Origin: Paraburkholderia agricolaris
Lineage (GTDB): Bacteria; Pseudomonadota; Gammaproteobacteria; Burkholderiales; Burkholderiaceae
Direction: 5' to 3'
Length of the DNA stretch: 64,000 nucleotides
Assembly (NCBI RefSeq): GCF_009455635.1
Contig: NZ_QPER01000002.1
Span: 248,001-312,000 of the forward strand
The position numbers and the translations under genes are program-made. This document shows positions 35,770 to 46,226 of this stretch, one piece after another. Numbering within the stretch: the first letter of the stretch is position 1; each line of letters opens with the position of its first letter. The notes under the pieces were generated by a model. The model made no database searches. It had not been told where the DNA came from and saw only the letters and a program-made list of their open reading frames with translations.

Positions 35770-37167
35770 ATGGATGCGCATGCGAAGCCCGAACGGGCGA
35801 TCAAAACGGTAGAGGACGCAATTGCCCTGGTAGAGGCAAGCCGCCTGACGCATATCAAAGTCGGTGTGTCCGATGTCGACGGCATTCTGCGCGGAAAATA
35901 TTTACGCAAGGATAAATTCCTTGGTGCATTGCGCGCCGGGTTCGCTTTCTGCAACGTCGTATTGGGTTGGGATTCTAACGACCAGATGTACGACAATACG
36001 AAGTACACCGGCTGGCATACCGCCTACCCGGATGCCATGGTGCGCATCGTGCCGGAGAGCTGCCGCCGTTTGCCGCTTGAGCAGAGCGACGGCGAGGACA
36101 TGCTGTTCTTCCTTGCCGAGTTCGTTGAGGATGCCGCAGCAATTTGTCCGCGTGGTTTGTTGCAACGCGTACTGAAGCGCGCCGACGAGATGGGATTCGA
36201 GGCCCTGGCCGCGCTTGAATATGAGTTCTTCATGTTCGACGAAACGCCGCATTCGGTGCGCGAGAAGAATTATCGCGACCTGAAAAACTGGACACCCGGC
36301 AACTTCGGTTATTCGGTGCTGCGCAGTACGGTCGAAGGGGATTTCTACCGGCAGTTGCTCGATATGTGCGAGCAGATGGACATGCCGATCGAAGGCCTGC
36401 ATACCGAAACCGGTCCGGGTGTGCTGGAGGCTGCGCTTGCGGTCGATGGCGCGGCCGAGATGGCGGACAAGGCCATGCTGTTCAAAACCTTCACCAAGGC
36501 GCTGGCCCAGAAGAACAATCTGATGGCGACCTTCATGGCGAAATGGTCGCACGACCACCCGGGACAAAGCGGTCATATCCATGTGTCCCTGCGTGAGGCG
36601 CGTACCGGAAAATCGGTGTTCTACGACGACAGCCGTCCCTACAATATGAGCGCGAGGCAAGCCAGTTTCATGGCAGGGGTGCAACGCTACCTGCCCGAAT
36701 TCATGTCGATGTTCGCGCAGACCGTCAACAGCTATTCCCGTCTGGTGCCCGGCTACTGGGCCCCGCTCGATGCAACATGGGGCGTCGAGAATCGAACCAC
36801 GGCCTTGCGCCTGATCCCGGGTTCCGCAAAGTCCCAGCGCGTGGAAGTTCGCATCGGGTCGGCCGACGCGAATCCCTACATTGCATTAGCGGCTGCCCTG
36901 GGCGCCGGTTTGCACGGTATCGAACAGGGCCTCGAACCGGGCCCGATCGTTCAGGGGAACGCCTATACGCAGGAGTTTCCGGCCCACCTGAAATTGCCAT
37001 GCACCTTGTGGGAAGCCGCTCAGCGACTCCGCGATTCCGAAGCAGCGAAGACCCTGTTTGGCGAACCGTTTGTCGAGCACTTTGTGGCGACGCGTGAATG
37101 GGAAGAACGGCAGTTCCGTCGGCATGTGACCGATTGGGAATTGGCCCGGTATTTCGAAATTATCTGA
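35770..37167 (+). CDS. Glutamine synthetase-like gamma-glutamyl ligase (PuuA/GlnA-like)
   Basis: A 465-residue GS-fold ligase. Catalytic elements: EYEFFMFDE, GLHTETGPGVLEAAL, the HIHVSL nucleotide site, YWAPLDATWGVENRTTALR and VEVRIGSADANPY. The phrase ETGPGVLE resembles gamma-glutamylputrescine synthetase PuuA rather than true GlnA, so it probably joins glutamate to an amine with ATP. It is the first gene of a four-gene operon (21, 23 and 36 bp gaps). The neighbours (alcohol and aldehyde dehydrogenase, metallohydrolase) suggest the amine carries a hydroxyl; ethanolamine-type substrates are a guess. Confidence 0.9.
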   Translation: MDAHAKPERAIKTVEDAIALVEASRLTHIKVGVSDVDGILRGKYLRKDKFLGALRAGFAFCNVVLGWDSNDQMYDNTKYTGWHTAYPDAMVRIVPESCRRLPLEQSDGEDMLFFLAEFVEDAAAICPRGLLQRVLKRADEMGFEALAALEYEFFMFDETPHSVREKNYRDLKNWTPGNFGYSVLRSTVEGDFYRQLLDMCEQMDMPIEGLHTETGPGVLEAALAVDGAAEMADKAMLFKTFTKALAQKNNLMATFMAKWSHDHPGQSGHIHVSLREARTGKSVFYDDSRPYNMSARQASFMAGVQRYLPEFMSMFAQTVNSYSRLVPGYWAPLDATWGVENRTTALRLIPGSAKSQRVEVRIGSADANPYIALAAALGAGLHGIEQGLEPGPIVQGNAYTQEFPAHLKLPCTLWEAAQRLRDSEAAKTLFGEPFVEHFVATREWEERQFRRHVTDWELARYFEII

Positions 37168-37188
37168 GTCCAAGAGTCCAAGCCCACC

Positions 37189-38583
37189 ATGATGAAACAA
37201 GAACTGATTACGATTAGCCCGATCGACGGCAGCGAGTTCGTGCGCCGGCCTTATGCGAGCGATTCACATATCGAGCAGACGCTGCGCCGTGCGCATACCG
37301 CCCAGAAAGCATGGGCCGCAAAACCGCTGTCGGAGCGCGTGGCGTTGGTTGGCCGTGCCGTCGAACACTTTGTCGAAAACAAGGCCAATATCGCCGAGGC
37401 GATTACGCGCCAGATGGGGCGCCCGCTGCGCTACACCGGCGGCGAGGTGGACGGTTTTGCGGCACGCGCGCGCCATATGATGGCGATTGCTGAAGACTCG
37501 TTGAAGCCCGTGCAAGTGGCGCCGCAAGACGGCTTTACCCGCTTTATTTCGCGTGAACCGGTCGGCGTGGTGTTGACCATCGCGCCGTGGAATTACCCGT
37601 TGCTGACCGCCGTCAATAGCATCGTGCCGGCGCTGTTGGCAGGTAATACGGTCATTCTCAAGCATTCCGATCAGACGCCGCTATGCGCCGAACTCATCCA
37701 TCAGGCATTTGTTCAGGCCGACTTGCCTGAGGGCGTGTTTCAGTACCTGCATGTGGATCACGAGCGCGTGCGTCGACTGATTCAGGCAAAGGAAATCGGT
37801 TTTGTCTGCTTTACCGGTTCGGTGGGGGGAGGCCGTATCGTCGAGGAAGCCGCCGCAGGCCGTTTTATCGGGGTTGGACTGGAGTTGGGTGGTAATGATC
37901 CGGCCTACGTGCGAGGCGACGCCAATCTCGACCATGCCGTGGAAACGCTGGTGGACGGCGCATTTTTCAACTCGGGCCAGTCGTGCTGCGGTATCCAGCG
38001 GATTTATGTGGCTCAGCCTCTGTACAAGGACTTTGTCGAACGTGCGGTGGCGCTGACCAACCAGTACGTACTCGGCAATCCGCTCGATGCACAAACCACC
38101 TTGGGGCCGGTCGTGCGTACCGCGGCAGCCGACGGCGTGCGCGCCGTGATTGCCGATGCACTCGCCAAGGGCGCGAAGAATCTGATCGACGAAAGCCAGT
38201 TTGCGCTGTCGCGCGTTGGCACGCCTTATGTTGCACCGGGCATCTTCGTGAATGTCGACCACGGCATGACGCTGATGAACGACGAATGCTTCGGGCCGAC
38301 GGTCGGCATCATGCCCGTGTCCGGCGATGAACAGGCAATCGAGCTCATGAACGACAGCCCCTACGGTCTGACGGCCAGCGTGTTCACAAGCGACGAGGAC
38401 GCGGCGCTATCGATCGGCCGGCGTGTCGAAACCGGCACGTTCTTCATGAACCGCTGCGATTATCTCGACCCCGCGCTGGCCTGGACCGGCGTGAAGAATA
38501 CCGGACGTGGTGCGACCCTGTCGGCAATTGGTTACGAGCATCTGACGCGACCCAAGTCTTTTCATCTGAAAACCCGTCTTTGA
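37189..38583 (+). CDS. Aldehyde dehydrogenase family protein
   Basis: A 464-residue NAD(P)-dependent ALDH. The cofactor region APWNYPLLTAVNSIVPALLAG, the general base Glu in GLELGGNDPAY and the catalytic Cys in NSGQSCCGIQR are present; GFVCFTGSVGGG forms the Rossmann turn. It is second in the operon after the GS-like ligase and before an iron alcohol dehydrogenase. If the pathway follows Puu logic it would oxidise a gamma-glutamyl-amino aldehyde to the acid. Confidence 0.94.
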   Translation: MMKQELITISPIDGSEFVRRPYASDSHIEQTLRRAHTAQKAWAAKPLSERVALVGRAVEHFVENKANIAEAITRQMGRPLRYTGGEVDGFAARARHMMAIAEDSLKPVQVAPQDGFTRFISREPVGVVLTIAPWNYPLLTAVNSIVPALLAGNTVILKHSDQTPLCAELIHQAFVQADLPEGVFQYLHVDHERVRRLIQAKEIGFVCFTGSVGGGRIVEEAAAGRFIGVGLELGGNDPAYVRGDANLDHAVETLVDGAFFNSGQSCCGIQRIYVAQPLYKDFVERAVALTNQYVLGNPLDAQTTLGPVVRTAAADGVRAVIADALAKGAKNLIDESQFALSRVGTPYVAPGIFVNVDHGMTLMNDECFGPTVGIMPVSGDEQAIELMNDSPYGLTASVFTSDEDAALSIGRRVETGTFFMNRCDYLDPALAWTGVKNTGRGATLSAIGYEHLTRPKSFHLKTRL

Positions 38584-38606
38584 ACGGGACTCTCGAAGGA
38601 ACTCGC

Positions 38607-39770
38607 ATGTCACTCCCCACCGCAAACTGGAATTATCCGACCGCCGTCAAAGTCGGTGCAGGCCGCATTGGCGAATTGGCTCAATGGTGCAAAAGTCTGG
38701 GCATGCGTCGGCCGCTATTGATTACCGACCCGGGTCTGGCCGCGTTGCCGTTGATCGGCAGCGCTGTGGATCAGTGCAGGTCCGCGGGCCTGGAGTGCGG
38801 ACTGTTTCACGATATCAAGGGCAACCCGACCGGCAAGAATGTCGACGACGGCGTGGCGATATTCAAGGCCGGCGACCATGACGGCGTGATCGCCTTCGGT
38901 GGCGGCTCGGCTCTCGATGCGGCCAAAGCCGTCGCGCTGATGGTCGGGCAGGATCGTCCGTTGTGGGACTTCGAAGATGTCGGCGACAACTATCTGCGTG
39001 TCAATGTGGCCGGCATGGCGCCCGTCGTCGCTGTGCCGACCACGGCGGGAACCGGTTCGGAAGTCGGACGCGCATCGGTGATCACCGACGACGAATCCCA
39101 CGTGAAGCGGATCATCTTTCACGCGAAGATGCTGCCCGCGGTGGTCATCCTCGATCCTGAGCTGACGGTGGGCTTGCCGGCAAAACTGACGGCGGCGACC
39201 GGCATGGACGCTCTGTCGCATAACCTTGAAGCCTATTGTTCGCCGTTTTATCACCCAATGGCGACCGGCATCGCAGTCGAGGGGATTCGCCTGATCAAGC
39301 AGTTTCTGCCGCGCGCCGTCAAGGACGGCCACGATCTCGACGCGCGCCTGCAAATGCTGGTGGCATCGAGCATGGGCGCTACGGCATTTCAGCGTGGTCT
39401 CGGTGCAATGCATGCCTTGGCCCATCCGTTGGGCGCGCTGTACGACGCCCATCACGGCATGCTCAACGCGATTCTGATGCCGTATGTGCTCAAGGCGAAC
39501 GAATCGGCCATCAAGGACCGGATCGAATTGCTGGCGCGCTATCTGGAACTGGCGCAGCCGTCGTTCGCATCGTTCCTCGAATGGGTTCTGACGATGCGCG
39601 AGTCGCTGGGTATTCCTCATACGCTGCAGGACATCGGCATCGATGCGCGCGACGCGGTGAAGATCGGTGAAATGGCCGTGGCCGATGGATCCGCCGGCAC
39701 CAATCCGATACCGTTCAACGCCGCCGAGTACAACCGCATTTTCACGACCGCGGTAGAAGGCCTGCTGTAA
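38607..39770 (+). CDS. Iron-containing alcohol dehydrogenase
   Basis: A 387-residue group III ADH. The NAD site is GVIAFGGGSALDAAKA, with VPTTAGTGSEVGRASVI after it. Metal ligands are Asp and His in TGMDALSHNLEAY, His in MHALAHPLGALYD and the DAHHG segment. GAAGGA stands before the ATG at 38607; a TTG at 38580 overlaps the previous stop and is less likely. As the third operon gene it would oxidise an alcohol to the aldehyde used by the preceding ALDH. Confidence 0.94.
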   Translation: MSLPTANWNYPTAVKVGAGRIGELAQWCKSLGMRRPLLITDPGLAALPLIGSAVDQCRSAGLECGLFHDIKGNPTGKNVDDGVAIFKAGDHDGVIAFGGGSALDAAKAVALMVGQDRPLWDFEDVGDNYLRVNVAGMAPVVAVPTTAGTGSEVGRASVITDDESHVKRIIFHAKMLPAVVILDPELTVGLPAKLTAATGMDALSHNLEAYCSPFYHPMATGIAVEGIRLIKQFLPRAVKDGHDLDARLQMLVASSMGATAFQRGLGAMHALAHPLGALYDAHHGMLNAILMPYVLKANESAIKDRIELLARYLELAQPSFASFLEWVLTMRESLGIPHTLQDIGIDARDAVKIGEMAVADGSAGTNPIPFNAAEYNRIFTTAVEGLL

Positions 39771-39806
39771 CGCCAGGGCGTCAGTCAGAGTGATCGAGGG
39801 AATGTT

Positions 39807-41285
39807 GTGGCAAGAATCGGGATCGCTGGTTTTCTGCATGAGACCAATACGTTCGCCGCCAGCCGGGCGAGTTTCGCTACGTTCGTCGAAGCGGATGCGT
39901 GGCCGGGCTTGCTGGTTGGCGAGGAAATTTTCGGTGCGGTCTCGGGCGTCAATCTGGCGATCGACGGTTTTATCCAGGCTGCGCGGCCAGCACACCAGTT
40001 AGTCCCGTTGCTGTGGGCGTCGGCTAACCCGAGCGGTCCGGTCACGCAGGACGCGTTCGAAGCGATTGCTTTCATGCTCAACCGGATGATTCGCGATGCC
40101 GGTCCGCTCGACGCGCTGTTCCTCGATCTACACGGCGCGATGGTGAGCGAGCATCTGGAGGACGGCGAGGGAGAGTTGCTCCGGCGCTTGCGGCACAGAG
40201 TCGGCGCCACGATGCCGATCGTGGCGGCGCTCGATTTTCACGCCAACATCACGCCGGCCATGATCGACCATGCGAGTGGGCTGCTGGCGTATCGCAGCTA
40301 TCCGCATGTCGACATGATGCAGACCGGGCGGCGCGCTCAGGTGCTGCTGGATAAGTTGCTCGCCGGCGCGACGATGTGCAAGGGCTATCGCCAGCTTCCC
40401 TTTCTGATTCCCATGCCGTGGCAGAGCACCTTGACCGAGCCGATGCGCGGCTTGATGGCGCTTGGTGAGTCTCTCGCATCGGAACAGGTTTTTGCCGCCG
40501 AATTTGTGCCGGGTTTTCCGCTTGCCGATATTCATCACAGTGGCCCCAGCGTGATTGCCTACGGCGCTGATCCGATCGCGGTCGACGCAGCGGTCGACGC
40601 TTTGACGCAAGCGGTTCTGGCCCGACAGTCTGATTTCGGCGGACGCCTTCACGCACCGGCCGATGCCGTCGCGCACGCGCTCGAGCGAGCGCTGCGGCCG
40701 GGCGGCGGCAGGGTCATCCTGGCCGATACGCAGGACAATCCAGGCGGTGGCGGCGGCGGTGACACAACCGACCTCCTGCACGAGTTGCTACGGCAAAAAG
40801 CGCAACGCGTATGCGCCGGTGTGCTGTGTGATGCGGAATTTGTCGAAGCGGCAGCGCGCGCGGGCGTCGGCGCCGTTATTCATATACCGCTGGGTGGCGT
40901 TAGCGGCATGGGGGCCGGCCCGCTGCACGTGCCATTCGAAGTGCTTGGGCTCGGAACTGGCCGTTTCACCGGCACGGGACCGTTTTATCTCGGCTGCCAG
41001 ATGGATATCGGGCCCATGGCCCGCGTGCGGTGTGGCGGCCCACTCGGTGTGGAGATCGTCGTATCGAGCCGCAAGCAGCAGGCTGCCGATCAGGCGATGT
41101 TCCGGCACGTCGGCGCCAACCCGTCCGACTACCGCATCCTGGTACTCAAGAGCTCGGTGCATTTCCGGGCCGACTTTGCCGCGTTGGCGAGTGAAATTCT
41201 GGTGGTGGCGGCGCCCGGCATCAATGTGGCCGATCTGCACCAGTTGCGTTACGAAAAATTGCGACCCGGCGTCAAACTGCTTTGA
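39807..41285 (+). CDS. M81-family metallopeptidase, MlrC-like
   Basis: A 492-residue protein starting with GTG, with GAGGG upstream. It matches the MlrC N- and C-terminal domains: GIAGFLHETNTFA, DALFLDLHGAMVSEH, VAALDFHANIT with putative metal-binding His/Asp, YRSYPHVDMMQTGRRA, and later ADTQDNPGGGGGGDTT. The founding member, microcystinase C, is a metallopeptidase that opens peptide bonds near a gamma-linked D-glutamate in linear microcystin; most relatives have no known substrate. As the last gene of the operon it could remove the gamma-glutamyl group. Confidence 0.9.
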   Translation: MARIGIAGFLHETNTFAASRASFATFVEADAWPGLLVGEEIFGAVSGVNLAIDGFIQAARPAHQLVPLLWASANPSGPVTQDAFEAIAFMLNRMIRDAGPLDALFLDLHGAMVSEHLEDGEGELLRRLRHRVGATMPIVAALDFHANITPAMIDHASGLLAYRSYPHVDMMQTGRRAQVLLDKLLAGATMCKGYRQLPFLIPMPWQSTLTEPMRGLMALGESLASEQVFAAEFVPGFPLADIHHSGPSVIAYGADPIAVDAAVDALTQAVLARQSDFGGRLHAPADAVAHALERALRPGGGRVILADTQDNPGGGGGGDTTDLLHELLRQKAQRVCAGVLCDAEFVEAAARAGVGAVIHIPLGGVSGMGAGPLHVPFEVLGLGTGRFTGTGPFYLGCQMDIGPMARVRCGGPLGVEIVVSSRKQQAADQAMFRHVGANPSDYRILVLKSSVHFRADFAALASEILVVAAPGINVADLHQLRYEKLRPGVKLL

Positions 41286-41287
41286 AA

Positions 41288-42259
41288 TCAGCCCAACACG
41301 ATGGACGGCAGCAACCAGGGGGCATTCGCTTCGATGATGGGCAGGAAGCGATTCCTCAGCAAGCGCACGCTGTCTTCGGCGAGTTGCTGTGGCAGCAAGC
41401 CGAGATCGTCCTGACGGGCGACCATGGTGAGTTCGCGAAAGAACTCCTCGCCGGGAATCGGGACCAGGCGAAACGCCTGAGAAAACTTGTTGTCCGGGGT
41501 CAGTCCGGATTGCAACAGGCACAACGGCGTCGTGATGGTCCAGCCGGCATTGGCCATCACTAGTTGCATGATCGCAAACGAATTGTCGAGTTGCAGGCGC
41601 AGAGGCGGTTGAACGCCCCATTTTTCCAACTGGGTTTCAATGCTCCGGCCGATCACGGTGGAATTGCTGTAGCGAATGAAATCATCTCTGACGAGCAGGC
41701 TGCGCAGAGAGGGAACGGGTCCTTTGAAGTCGCCGGGCAAAACCAGCACAAATGGTTCACGCAAGATGCGCTGGCGGTACAGCAAAGGGTTTTTCAACAC
41801 CAGATCGTCGGAAACGATGATGTCCACCCGCCTGGACAGCAATGCTTCGGCATGCTGATGCGACTGGCCGGTCACCATCGACCAGTTCGTGGTGCGTTCC
41901 CGTATCGCGCTCAACAGTTCAGCGCCGATGCTGGTGGCCATGGAGTCGACCAGTGCAATGCGAATGTGTTTGAGCGGTTCGCCGGGAGGCTTGTGGAATT
42001 CCTGACTCAAGTGCCGGGCGTCATCCAGCAGCGTGCAGGCGCGGTTGTAAAACTGGCGGCCCGCGGGTGTCAGCAACGGAGGCCGTTGCGAGCGATCCAG
42101 CAGCTGGAGATTGAGTGCCTGTTCCAGGTTCGACAGCGTTTGAGAGACTGAGGATTGCGTGATGCTGAGCCGTTGACCTGCCGCCGTCATGCCGCCGGAT
42201 TCGACGACAAGCACGAAGACTTCGAGCGCCTTCAGATCGAAATGAATGCCATTCTGCAT
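41288..42259 (-). CDS. LysR-family regulator beside the glutamyl-pathway operon
   Basis: A 323-residue LysR protein. FDLKALEVFVLVVESGGMTA, then LSITQSSVSQTLSNLEQAL and LDRSQRPPLLTPAG are the HTH and wing. The ATG at 42259 follows AGGCGG; the upstream frame is not protein-like. It is convergent with the M81 gene (2 bp between stop codons), so it does not share a promoter with the operon. Closeness still makes it the best candidate regulator. Confidence 0.92.
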   Translation of the reverse strand: MQNGIHFDLKALEVFVLVVESGGMTAAGQRLSITQSSVSQTLSNLEQALNLQLLDRSQRPPLLTPAGRQFYNRACTLLDDARHLSQEFHKPPGEPLKHIRIALVDSMATSIGAELLSAIRERTTNWSMVTGQSHQHAEALLSRRVDIIVSDDLVLKNPLLYRQRILREPFVLVLPGDFKGPVPSLRSLLVRDDFIRYSNSTVIGRSIETQLEKWGVQPPLRLQLDNSFAIMQLVMANAGWTITTPLCLLQSGLTPDNKFSQAFRLVPIPGEEFFRELTMVARQDDLGLLPQQLAEDSVRLLRNRFLPIIEANAPWLLPSIVLG

Positions 42260-42422
42260 AAGACCGCCTGATTGACCGCGACGGCAAGTGGCCGGGAGCG
42301 CGAGGGTGCGATATCTCGGAGTAGTGTACCCACTGTTGGCTTCGCTACAAAAAAGCGACATCAGAATCGGATAGACAAGCCTATGACTTTCCCGTCTGCT
42401 GCTTCAGAGCCTGACGCGGCTT

Positions 42423-43665: not shown

Positions 43666-44124
43666 ATGCCCAAGATCGACATCGCCGCTGTGCCCGTGCG
43701 TAACGGTTCGGGCTATCCGTCTCCGTTCGACGCGCCCTGTACCGCGCGAACACGGCGGCGTCTCGGAGAGGCGGGTGGACTTCGCGATTTCGGCCTTAAT
43801 CTGATGACCTTGCCGCCGGGCAACTGGTCCAGCCAGCGCCACTGGCACAGTCATGAGGACGAGTTCGTCTATGTACTCGAGGGCGAAGTGACACTTGTGG
43901 AAGACGGCGGCCAAACACTATTGCGCGCGGGCGATTGCGCGGCGTTTCCGCAAGGCACCGGCAATGGCCATCACCTGATCAATCACTCCTCTGCAATGGT
44001 CGTTTATCTGGAGGTGGGGTCGCGCAACCCGAATGATCTCACCACCTGTTCCGATGTCGACATGATGAGTTCCAACGCCGACGGCCGGTTTGTGCATAAA
44101 GACGGTACGCCTTATCCCAAGTGA
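43666..44124 (+). CDS. Cupin-domain protein
   Basis: A 152-residue single-cupin protein. The first motif is RHWHSHEDEFVYVLEGEVTL, with His/His/Glu ligands, and the second is GDCAAFPQGTGNGHHLIN. The C-terminal segment SDVDMMSSNADGRFVHKDG with PYPK is shared by a group of proteobacterial cupins that often begin with MPKIDI. The ATG at 43666 has AGGGAG upstream. It overlaps the end of the convergent COG0523 gene by 13 bp. Role unknown. Confidence 0.88.
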   Translation: MPKIDIAAVPVRNGSGYPSPFDAPCTARTRRRLGEAGGLRDFGLNLMTLPPGNWSSQRHWHSHEDEFVYVLEGEVTLVEDGGQTLLRAGDCAAFPQGTGNGHHLINHSSAMVVYLEVGSRNPNDLTTCSDVDMMSSNADGRFVHKDGTPYPK

Positions 44125-45209
44125 TAACCTGGTGCGCGATCTATGGCGGCGAGAGTCGGTCCATCGGAAAGCGCCGCATCATCTTCCGCCGGTTCGTTCA
44201 CTCCCGCTTCGCGCAGAAAATGCGCGATCGTTTCTTCGATCACCGACCTGGCGAGCCCTTGCACGATGAACACGAGCCGTGTTGTGTGATCGTCGTCAGG
44301 CCATGCTTCAAGCCGTATCGGTTCATGCAGCAACTGCTGCACGCCATGGAACACAACAGGCCGCGATTCGCCGATGAAATTGCCGATCCCCTTGACCCGC
44401 AGGATGTGTTCGCCGTGATAGCCGAGCAATACCGTCAACGCGGTTTCGAACGGCTGCATGGGCAATGCCTGCGAGTAGGTCAGGCAGAAACTGTCGATGT
44501 CCGGATGAGCCGCACGTGACGCCGCTGCGCCACGCATCAGCAACTTGCGTGGCGAAGGCTCGGCGCGCAACCAGGGCCGCAACGCACGCGGCGTCAGAAT
44601 ATCGAGCAGTTGCTGTGCTTCAATCTCGCCGTTGTGCACCGGGATGCGCGTCGCACCCGGATTCAGCGCTTCAAGCGCCGCTTCGAGTTCGGCTAGCGCG
44701 GGCGCATCGACCAGCTCAGCCTTTGTCAGCAACAGCCGGTCCGCGACCGCCACCTGCTGACGCGACTCTTCATGCCGGGCAAGTTGCGCGGCGCCGTGTT
44801 TCGCATCCACGGTCGTCACGATGCCGTCGAGCTGCAAACGACCTTCAAGCGCCGGGTCGCCGAGCAGCAGCGAGATCACCGGGCCGGGCCGCGCAAGGCC
44901 CGTGGTCTCGATCAGAATCCGCTCGAAGGCGGGAATCTCGCCGCGCGTGCGGCGCTCCAGCAGATCGGCCACGGTCGCAGCCAGTTCGTCGCGCACGCCG
45001 CAACACAGACAGCCGTTTTCCAGCAGCGCGATGGTCTCGTCGCGCGAGGTGCTGACGAACAGATGATCGAGACCGATCGCGCCCAGTTCGTTGATCACCA
45101 CGGCACAACGGCCCAGCGCCGGTTGCGGCAGCAGGCGATTGAGCAACGTGGTCTTACCCGAACCGAGAAAGCCGGTCAGCAATGTCAGGGGAATCGCGGC
45201 GAATTGCAT
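44112..45209 (-). CDS. COG0523/CobW-family GTPase (metallochaperone-like)
   Basis: A 365-residue G3E GTPase. Walker A is LLTGFLGSGKTTLLNRLL, the metal-binding CxCC motif is ENGCLCCGVRDEL, ETTGLARPGP follows as switch region, and LLLTKAELVD is the guanine-specificity (NKxD-like) site. The C-terminal CobW_C domain has GIGNFIGESRPVVFHGVQ. This family delivers Zn or Co to client enzymes. The ATG at 45209 is chosen over a GTG at 45227. It lies 18 bp downstream of a Zn-dependent hydrolase gene, and that pairing suggests the client. Confidence 0.92.
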   Translation of the reverse strand: MQFAAIPLTLLTGFLGSGKTTLLNRLLPQPALGRCAVVINELGAIGLDHLFVSTSRDETIALLENGCLCCGVRDELAATVADLLERRTRGEIPAFERILIETTGLARPGPVISLLLGDPALEGRLQLDGIVTTVDAKHGAAQLARHEESRQQVAVADRLLLTKAELVDAPALAELEAALEALNPGATRIPVHNGEIEAQQLLDILTPRALRPWLRAEPSPRKLLMRGAAASRAAHPDIDSFCLTYSQALPMQPFETALTVLLGYHGEHILRVKGIGNFIGESRPVVFHGVQQLLHEPIRLEAWPDDDHTTRLVFIVQGLARSVIEETIAHFLREAGVNEPAEDDAALSDGPTLAAIDRAPGYHLG

Positions 45210-45227
45210 GGTGGCTTGTTCCGGCAC

Positions 45228-46226
45228 TCAGATAACCTGCAGATCTTTTCCGACGATGATCTGTCCGTCGAAATGCTTGCGCGCATCGGCCGCCCACATC
45301 TCGTCTGTGATCGCGGGATCGCCACCCGGCACGAAATGGCTCAGCACCAGCGTCTTGACGCCCGCCGCCGCGGCGATCCTGCCGACCTGTTCCGTGGTGG
45401 TGTGGCTCTTCATGAGGTGATCGAGCAGCGTCGGCGCGTTGTCGACGGTCTTCATCAGTTTTTCGAGCGCGGGCAGGTACATCACTTCGTGCACCAGTAC
45501 GTCAGCGCCTTTCGCGAACTCGGCCAGCGCCGGGTAGTAGGTCGTGTCGCCAGAAAAGACGACGGTGCGGTCCTTGGTCTCGAAGCGGTAGGCGAAGGCC
45601 GGCTTGATCGTGTAGTGATCGACCAGTGTCGAGGTGACACGTACACGCTCGTCTTCCATCACGAGGCGCGGGCCGTCGAATTCATGGATGTTGATCAGTG
45701 GCCGGAATGGCGGGCGGCCTTCTTCGCGCATGCGTACGTCGAGATCGATCGCGTTCATATCGACAAAGTCGTCGATCATCTTTGTCATGCGCGGCGGCCC
45801 GTACAGATTGACGGGCGTGCGCAGACCGGTGGCCCAGGCGAGAAATACGAGGTTGCCGAGGTCGGCGTTGTGATCCGAATGATGGTGAGTCAGGAAGATG
45901 TCGCGGATGCCCGGCAGCTTGATGCCCGCCTTGGTCAGTTGCAGCGCGACGCCGTTGCCGCAATCGACCACATAGGGCTGGCCGTCGACCACCAGCACGT
46001 TCGCCGGCGCGGCGCGCAGGTCGGACGGTGTCGGGCCGCCCTTGGTGCCGAGCAGGATCAACTGGGTGCCTTTTGCCGAATGACCCGCGACGGGCGCTGT
46101 GCTTGCGGCGTTGGCCGGTGACTGCGCATGGGCGTCCTGCATCCACGGCAGCGCGGCGGTGGTGCCTGCTGTAACGGCGATACGCATGAAATCACGACGG
46201 GAGCGGCCGAACGGCTGATCATTCAT
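45228..46226 (-). CDS. Tat-exported metallo-beta-lactamase-fold hydrolase
   Basis: A 332-residue protein with a twin-arginine signal (RSRRDFMRIAV, Arg 10-11) and likely cleavage after AHA at residue 34. The metal site HHHSDH (His114, His116, Asp118, His119) is intact, with a later VVFSGDTTYY and LSHFVPGGD typical of the arylsulfatase/tRNase Z-like branch. Tat export implies folding with metal in the cytoplasm before secretion. It is the first gene of a pair with the COG0523 GTPase. Substrate unknown. Confidence 0.92.
   Translation of the reverse strand: MNDQPFGRSRRDFMRIAVTAGTTAALPWMQDAHAQSPANAASTAPVAGHSAKGTQLILLGTKGGPTPSDLRAAPANVLVVDGQPYVVDCGNGVALQLTKAGIKLPGIRDIFLTHHHSDHNADLGNLVFLAWATGLRTPVNLYGPPRMTKMIDDFVDMNAIDLDVRMREEGRPPFRPLINIHEFDGPRLVMEDERVRVTSTLVDHYTIKPAFAYRFETKDRTVVFSGDTTYYPALAEFAKGADVLVHEVMYLPALEKLMKTVDNAPTLLDHLMKSHTTTEQVGRIAAAAGVKTLVLSHFVPGGDPAITDEMWAADARKHFDGQIIVGKDLQVI

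Follow-up and report, generated by a model that had tools for sequence, protein, structure and literature searches.

This locus raises the question of what a metallohydrolase of peptidase family M81 does as the last of four tightly spaced genes, the other three of which encode a glutamine synthetase (GS)-fold ligase and two dehydrogenases. The window, that is, the whole stretch of 64,000 nucleotides that was analysed, comes from a Paraburkholderia agricolaris genome of two contigs (8.7 Mb). The features under study are as follows:

35770-37167, + strand: GS-fold gamma-glutamyl ligase, predicted ethanolamine gamma-glutamylase (465 aa; Pfam Gln-synt_C, 329 bits)
37189-38583, + strand: aldehyde dehydrogenase (ALDH), predicted to convert gamma-glutamyl-aminoacetaldehyde to gamma-glutamylglycine (464 aa; Pfam Aldedh, 404 bits)
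38607-39770, + strand: iron-type alcohol dehydrogenase (FeADH), predicted gamma-glutamylethanolamide dehydrogenase (387 aa; Pfam Fe-ADH, 170 bits, and ADH_Fe_C, 133 bits)
39807-41285, + strand: M81 (MlrC-type) metallohydrolase, predicted gamma-glutamylglycine hydrolase (492 aa, GTG start; PF07364, 295 bits, and MlrC_C, PF07171, 179 bits)
41288-42361, - strand: LysR-type regulator in convergent orientation, which may control the operon (Pfam)

The Four-Gene Unit and Its Surroundings

The unit runs from 35770 to 41285 on the + strand with intergenic gaps of 21, 23, and 36 nt, confirming the tight spacing described in an earlier note on this DNA. The same note had stated that the operon lacks a transporter, and indeed the ORFs and Pfam families of the four-gene unit itself include no transporter gene. 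The length of the FeADH is counted from an ATG; its open frame extends back to a TTG at 38580. The LysR gene ends 2 nt from the end of the M81 gene. Scans for promoters and terminators gave signal no greater than in shuffled sequence. Elsewhere in the window (44112-46226, - strand), a CobW-type protein gene adjoins a metallo-beta-lactamase-fold gene, possibly as a metal-delivery pair. The best named match to the ligase, among the matches listed, is from Paraburkholderia fungorum (96%). The operon is patchy, as 57 other genomes of the genus gave a ligase match at E ≤ 1e-80 in only 4 cases.

Predicted Pathway and Published Systems

The unit very probably encodes a gamma-glutamylation pathway of the ethanolamine type, for which we infer both the substrate, most likely ethanolamine, and each of the reactions. 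The ligase would use ATP to join glutamate to ethanolamine, giving gamma-glutamylethanolamide, whose hydroxyl would be converted to an aldehyde by the FeADH and then, by the ALDH, to the acid, gamma-glutamylglycine. The M81 metalloenzyme would cut the gamma-amide bond of gamma-glutamylglycine and release glutamate and glycine. The earlier note had proposed a gamma-glutamylation route for an amino alcohol, and this is supported in outline. The route is not new, since it is published for ethanolamine (PMC6529630, PMC10132767).

PMC10132767 describes an induced operon in Phaeobacter sp. MED193 (ETAGA, GAADDH, GETADH, GGAH), with phosphoethanolamine as an inducer. Its genes are annotated as ethanolamine gamma-glutamylase, gamma-glutamylacetylaldehydeamide dehydrogenase, and gamma-glutamylethanolamide dehydrogenase, alongside a gamma-glutamylglycine amidohydrolase and an ethanolamine TRAP transporter, and they are related to Chromohalobacter salexigens and Agrobacterium genes shown to work by Vetting et al. 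(PMC10132767). The window shares with this operon, as described there, the order of ligase, aldehyde dehydrogenase, and alcohol dehydrogenase and the four-step logic. It differs in having M81 instead of the amidohydrolase, in lacking the TRAP transporter, and in having a LysR rather than an RpiR regulator beside it. In Streptomyces, GlnA4 produces gamma-glutamylethanolamide, and a dehydrogenase, an ALDH, and an amidohydrolase are proposed to follow (PMC6529630). There too a GS-fold ligase acts on ethanolamine ahead of a dehydrogenase, an ALDH, and a hydrolase; however, the dehydrogenase is of the short-chain type, whereas that of the window is iron-type, and the proposed hydrolase belongs to the glutamine amidotransferase/formylglutamate amidohydrolase families and not to M81 (PMC6529630). 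The window holds a known type of pathway whose last enzyme appears to be new.

The GS-ALDH-FeADH Cassette and Its Fourth Gene

Genome contigs were scanned with the ligase and the best 80 loci of a longer list were used, which skews this set to close relatives. Combining these with the relatives, class, and order searches and removing identical ligases left 110 non-redundant loci. The ligase is adjoined by an ALDH in 95 and by an FeADH in 101 of them, and is accompanied by both in 93. The search for the same gene order in other genomes that the earlier note had recommended recovered GS-ALDH-FeADH-M81 in several genera, and M81 adjoins the cassette in 18/110 loci, window included.

Within 3.5 kb of the cassette, 37/110 loci carry a gene for a class-I glutamine amidotransferase (GATase), 18 one for M81, and 55 neither (17 of which have less than 1.5 kb of sequence downstream); both together were found in 0/110. 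Before removal of duplicates, the best 80 loci gave 28 GATase, 11 M81, and 41 neither; the class survey (17 loci) 9, 0, and 8; and the relatives search (9 loci) 0, 6, and 3, respectively. Measuring gaps between match ends, M81 lies 3′ of the FeADH on the same strand in 18/18 loci (3 to 478 nt), and the GATase does so within about 220 nt in 32/37; it is 1.5 kb off in L156 and divergent beside the ligase in L160, L161, L162, and L165. M81 thus appears to sit in the deglutamylating position, as had been suggested for this locus, because it fills the slot that the GATase holds elsewhere and never stands beside one.

Cassettes of the GATase type occur in Halomonadaceae, Legionella, Shewanella, Colwellia, and others, and on an L. 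lytica plasmid. Their first three genes match those of the window in kind, order, and spacing, and a LysR or an ethanolamine permease adjoins some; the fourth gene is unrelated to M81. The best solved match of the GATase is gamma-glutamyl peptidase 1 (E 2.5e-27). The His-x-Glu motif is present in 38/38 of these proteins and the strict Cys motif in 34/38, the Cys of the other four being kept by eye. Moritella sp. PE36 carries two tandem GATase genes 3′ of the FeADH (L067, 13035-14598).

No common alternative fourth gene was found among the scanned neighbours of the "neither" cassettes, which encode an alpha/beta hydrolase (L064), proteins for transport, EF-Tu-type proteins, and others. The hydrolase in this slot seems open to exchange, since other hydrolases lie by more distant ligases. 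A Burkholderia vietnamiensis plasmid (ligase 55.5% identity) has a ligase-ALDH-GATase set. On a Rhodobacteraceae plasmid (L273, 7140-10799; ligase 52.7%), an N-formylglutamate amidohydrolase, which may represent a third kind of hydrolase for this step, precedes ligase and ALDH. Around the ligase of a Pseudorhizobium plasmid are genes for transport and for a P1 peptidase, and no ALDH is listed there. Plasmids gave no M81 match at E ≤ 1e-100.

Phylogeny and Genome-Wide Complement

On the ligase tree (FastTree, 110 rows), the difference between M81 and GATase amounts to one change over the 55 rows having either, which argues for a single event rather than many independent ones. The M81 ligase rows fall in one 40-row group (support 98) that also holds 22 "neither" rows and no GATase row; if "neither" is treated as a further state, the number of changes for M81 rises to 5. 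On the M81 tree (IQ-TREE quick, 56 rows; long branches flagged, L066 among them), 18/18 operon M81s lie on one side of a branch (SH-aLRT 94) as one group with no non-operon member in the 56 rows, where one row classed as non-operon, L174, comes from a 3.3 kb contig with its context cut. Operon proteins share 49.6-100% identity with the window's M81 and non-operon proteins 29.6-52.1%, so the two ranges overlap slightly.

A converse survey of the order found M81 at E ≤ 1e-130 in 31/399 genomes, including that of the window. The 5 further M81s with identities of 53% or more all lie by the ligase, and the ligase was found in 0 of 14 inspected neighbourhoods of the 25 M81s at 47-50%. The non-operon M81s of about 50% identity (L258-L270, L200-L206, and others) have Dpp/Opp-type peptide ABC transporter genes in 15 of 25 stretches, and an amidase gene in 13. 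Six M81 genes are present in the window's genome, including three at G000:C2 2742589-2761359; the five outside the operon share about 30% identity with the operon M81. This genome has no GATase relative at E ≤ 1e-10, and the same search of the 18 M81-type genomes returned nothing save two poor matches of 26% identity (E 4e-15 and 9e-15).

That M81 is the hydrolase of an ethanolamine-type pathway is probable, its activity being a prediction. On balance, we also favour a fuller reading: M81 in these operons would be a metal-dependent enzyme that hydrolyses gamma-glutamylglycine, having supplanted a cysteine-type hydrolase of amidotransferase fold at the root of a single lineage. The enzyme replaced would be the class-I GATase, and the change a non-homologous displacement in one Burkholderiales-rich lineage. 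Displacement by M81 is a reading well supported by genome evidence: gene order, protein families, exclusivity, tree pattern, and an intact metal-ligand motif are all read from the sequences.

The existence of cassettes lacking a dedicated hydrolase weakens the displacement argument. Also counting against it are the single change on the ligase tree, the 22 "neither" rows on the M81 side of that tree, and the lack of a residue that sets the operon M81s apart from their sister group. We checked 17 genomes with "neither" cassettes for M81 and GATase genome-wide. All eight Achromobacter genomes among them lack a GATase at E ≤ 1e-20 and have an M81 of about 50% identity away from the cassette; the pathway may therefore be able to do without a hydrolase of its own. 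A GATase lies elsewhere in the genomes of L043, L050, L074, and L081, with no M81 at E ≤ 1e-60. The genome of L084 has both, away from the cassette; that of L061 has M81s only, that of L028 only a 35% M81, and those of L027 and L064 neither. An ethanolamine cassette in which M81 acts elsewhere, on a peptide or a side product, while a housekeeping enzyme such as gamma-glutamyltransferase cleaves gamma-glutamylglycine, would suit Achromobacter and some other genomes in which the cassette comes with neither a GATase nor an operon-type M81, as well as the peptide transporters beside the nearest non-operon M81s. We nonetheless consider it unlikely, because M81 occupies precisely the place of the GATase, on the same strand and similarly spaced, and never lies next to one, and because the operon M81s form a group apart.

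Substrate and Uptake

The choice of ethanolamine as the substrate draws in part on neighbouring genes in other genomes. The ethanolamine permease model (NCBIfam TIGR00908, cut-off 381.75) was passed beside three M81-type cassettes (L035, 647.8 bits; L033, 642.4 bits; L192, 635.7 bits) and two GATase-type cassettes (L085, 561.6 bits; L072, 545.0 bits), and L066 (M81-type, 374.8 bits) and L163 (371.6 bits) fell just below the cut-off. When a looser tblastn criterion was applied, permeases turned up within 6 kb in 4/17 M81-type, 9/37 GATase-type, and 9/55 other loci. Relatives of the window's LysR with 38% identity or more occur, again within 6 kb, at 12/17 M81-type, 11/37 GATase-type, and 0/55 neither-type cassettes; one LysR family is thus common to the M81 and GATase types. 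Beside a halomonad cassette of the same ligase clade (L052), the TRAP binding protein matches PDB 4uab/4xf5 at 532 bits; we take 4uab to be Csal_0678 with ethanolamine.

GS-fold ligases vary in their choice of amine. The same chemistry could serve another amino alcohol (e.g., 3-aminopropanol, alaninol, or 1-amino-2-propanol), with M81 recruited for a different gamma-glutamyl amino acid. The window's operon has no transporter of its own, and the best TIGR00908 score in its genome is 135.2 bits, with no protein over the cut-off, which would be in keeping with a different amine; the permeases beside the three M81-type operons and the shared LysR family nevertheless make this rather improbable. 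EutB was not found in the window's genome.

In Allopusillimonas (L032), a transporter similar to 2-aminoethylphosphonate systems borders the operon, each of its parts scoring below the curated cut-offs. In L032 (15402-20147), and upstream in L013 and L025, a HisN/inositol-monophosphatase-like phosphatase gene lies by the cassette together with a 2-aminoethylphosphonate-like ABC transporter (below cut-offs); these neighbours belong to Allopusillimonas and Achromobacter cassettes. Such phosphatase and transporter genes suggest uptake of a phosphorylated amino alcohol, e.g., phosphoethanolamine.

Ligase Identity

The Gln-synt_C match places the ligase in the GS fold. The earlier note had called it PuuA-like, which did not hold: the gamma-glutamylputrescine synthetase model (NF045547) gives 175.5 bits against a cut-off of 650, and the comparison with PuuA is unneeded. 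A type I glutamine synthetase (GlnA) was likewise rejected (TIGR00653, 217.3 against a cut-off of 429.15 bits). Trp330 (codon 36757-36759) replaces the flap glutamate of the genome's own GlnA, and Trp stands at this position in 110/110 members of the ligase clade. The flap glutamate is catalytic in GS. The E. coli Puu route has a similar logic of adding a glutamate tag, oxidizing, and removing the tag; in contrast, the window's unit has an alcohol dehydrogenase and, judged by the families of its genes, no FAD amine oxidase (PuuB) and no PuuD. The weak matches to both models could point to a polyamine pathway of the Puu kind, or to a standard glutamine synthetase that has nothing to do with its neighbours; this is very improbable, given scores so far under the cut-offs, the missing amine oxidase and PuuD, and the universal Trp.

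The M81 Protein and Its Metal Site

Matches over cut-off to PF07364 and PF07171 place the protein in peptidase family M81, which has at least 8000 proteins at E ≤ 1e-30. The model for microcystinase MlrC scores far below its cut-off (NF041767, 146.4 against 999 bits). Microcystinase C (MlrC, PDB 7ylq) and PDB 3iuu share with it the family and the metal-ligand motif, whereas its operon context is unrelated to microcystin. The zinc site of MlrC comprises Glu56, His150, Asp184, His186, and His208 (PMC12474180). In an alignment to 7ylq that presumes a constant offset of 17 between MlrC numbering and the chain, H109, D143, H145, and H167 (codons 40131, 40233, 40239, and 40305) align with the last four of these ligands. 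Across the 56 M81s, these four positions vary little or not at all. E12 (codon 39840) is invariant, falls outside the printed alignment, and is likely the fifth zinc ligand. At the thresholds used, no residue was fixed in the operon M81s but different in the sister group.

Such M81 proteins are named "microcystin degradation protein" in the sources. We found no link of M81 to gamma-glutamyl hydrolysis or ethanolamine in the open-access literature, including the available parts of PMC12474180 and PMC8305402; subscription papers and preprints lie outside this scope.

Implications

If the displacement reading is true, hydrolysis of gamma-glutamylglycine would be a new job for the M81 family. This large and mostly uncharacterised family would gain a concrete and easily tested substrate, and a physiological role outside microcystin breakdown, and the naming of such proteins after microcystin degradation would be corrected. 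Their cousins linked to peptide transporters would become candidate enzymes for the cleavage of unusual (iso)peptide bonds. It would also mean that, in a widespread route for ethanolamine, an unrelated fold can take over the final reaction.
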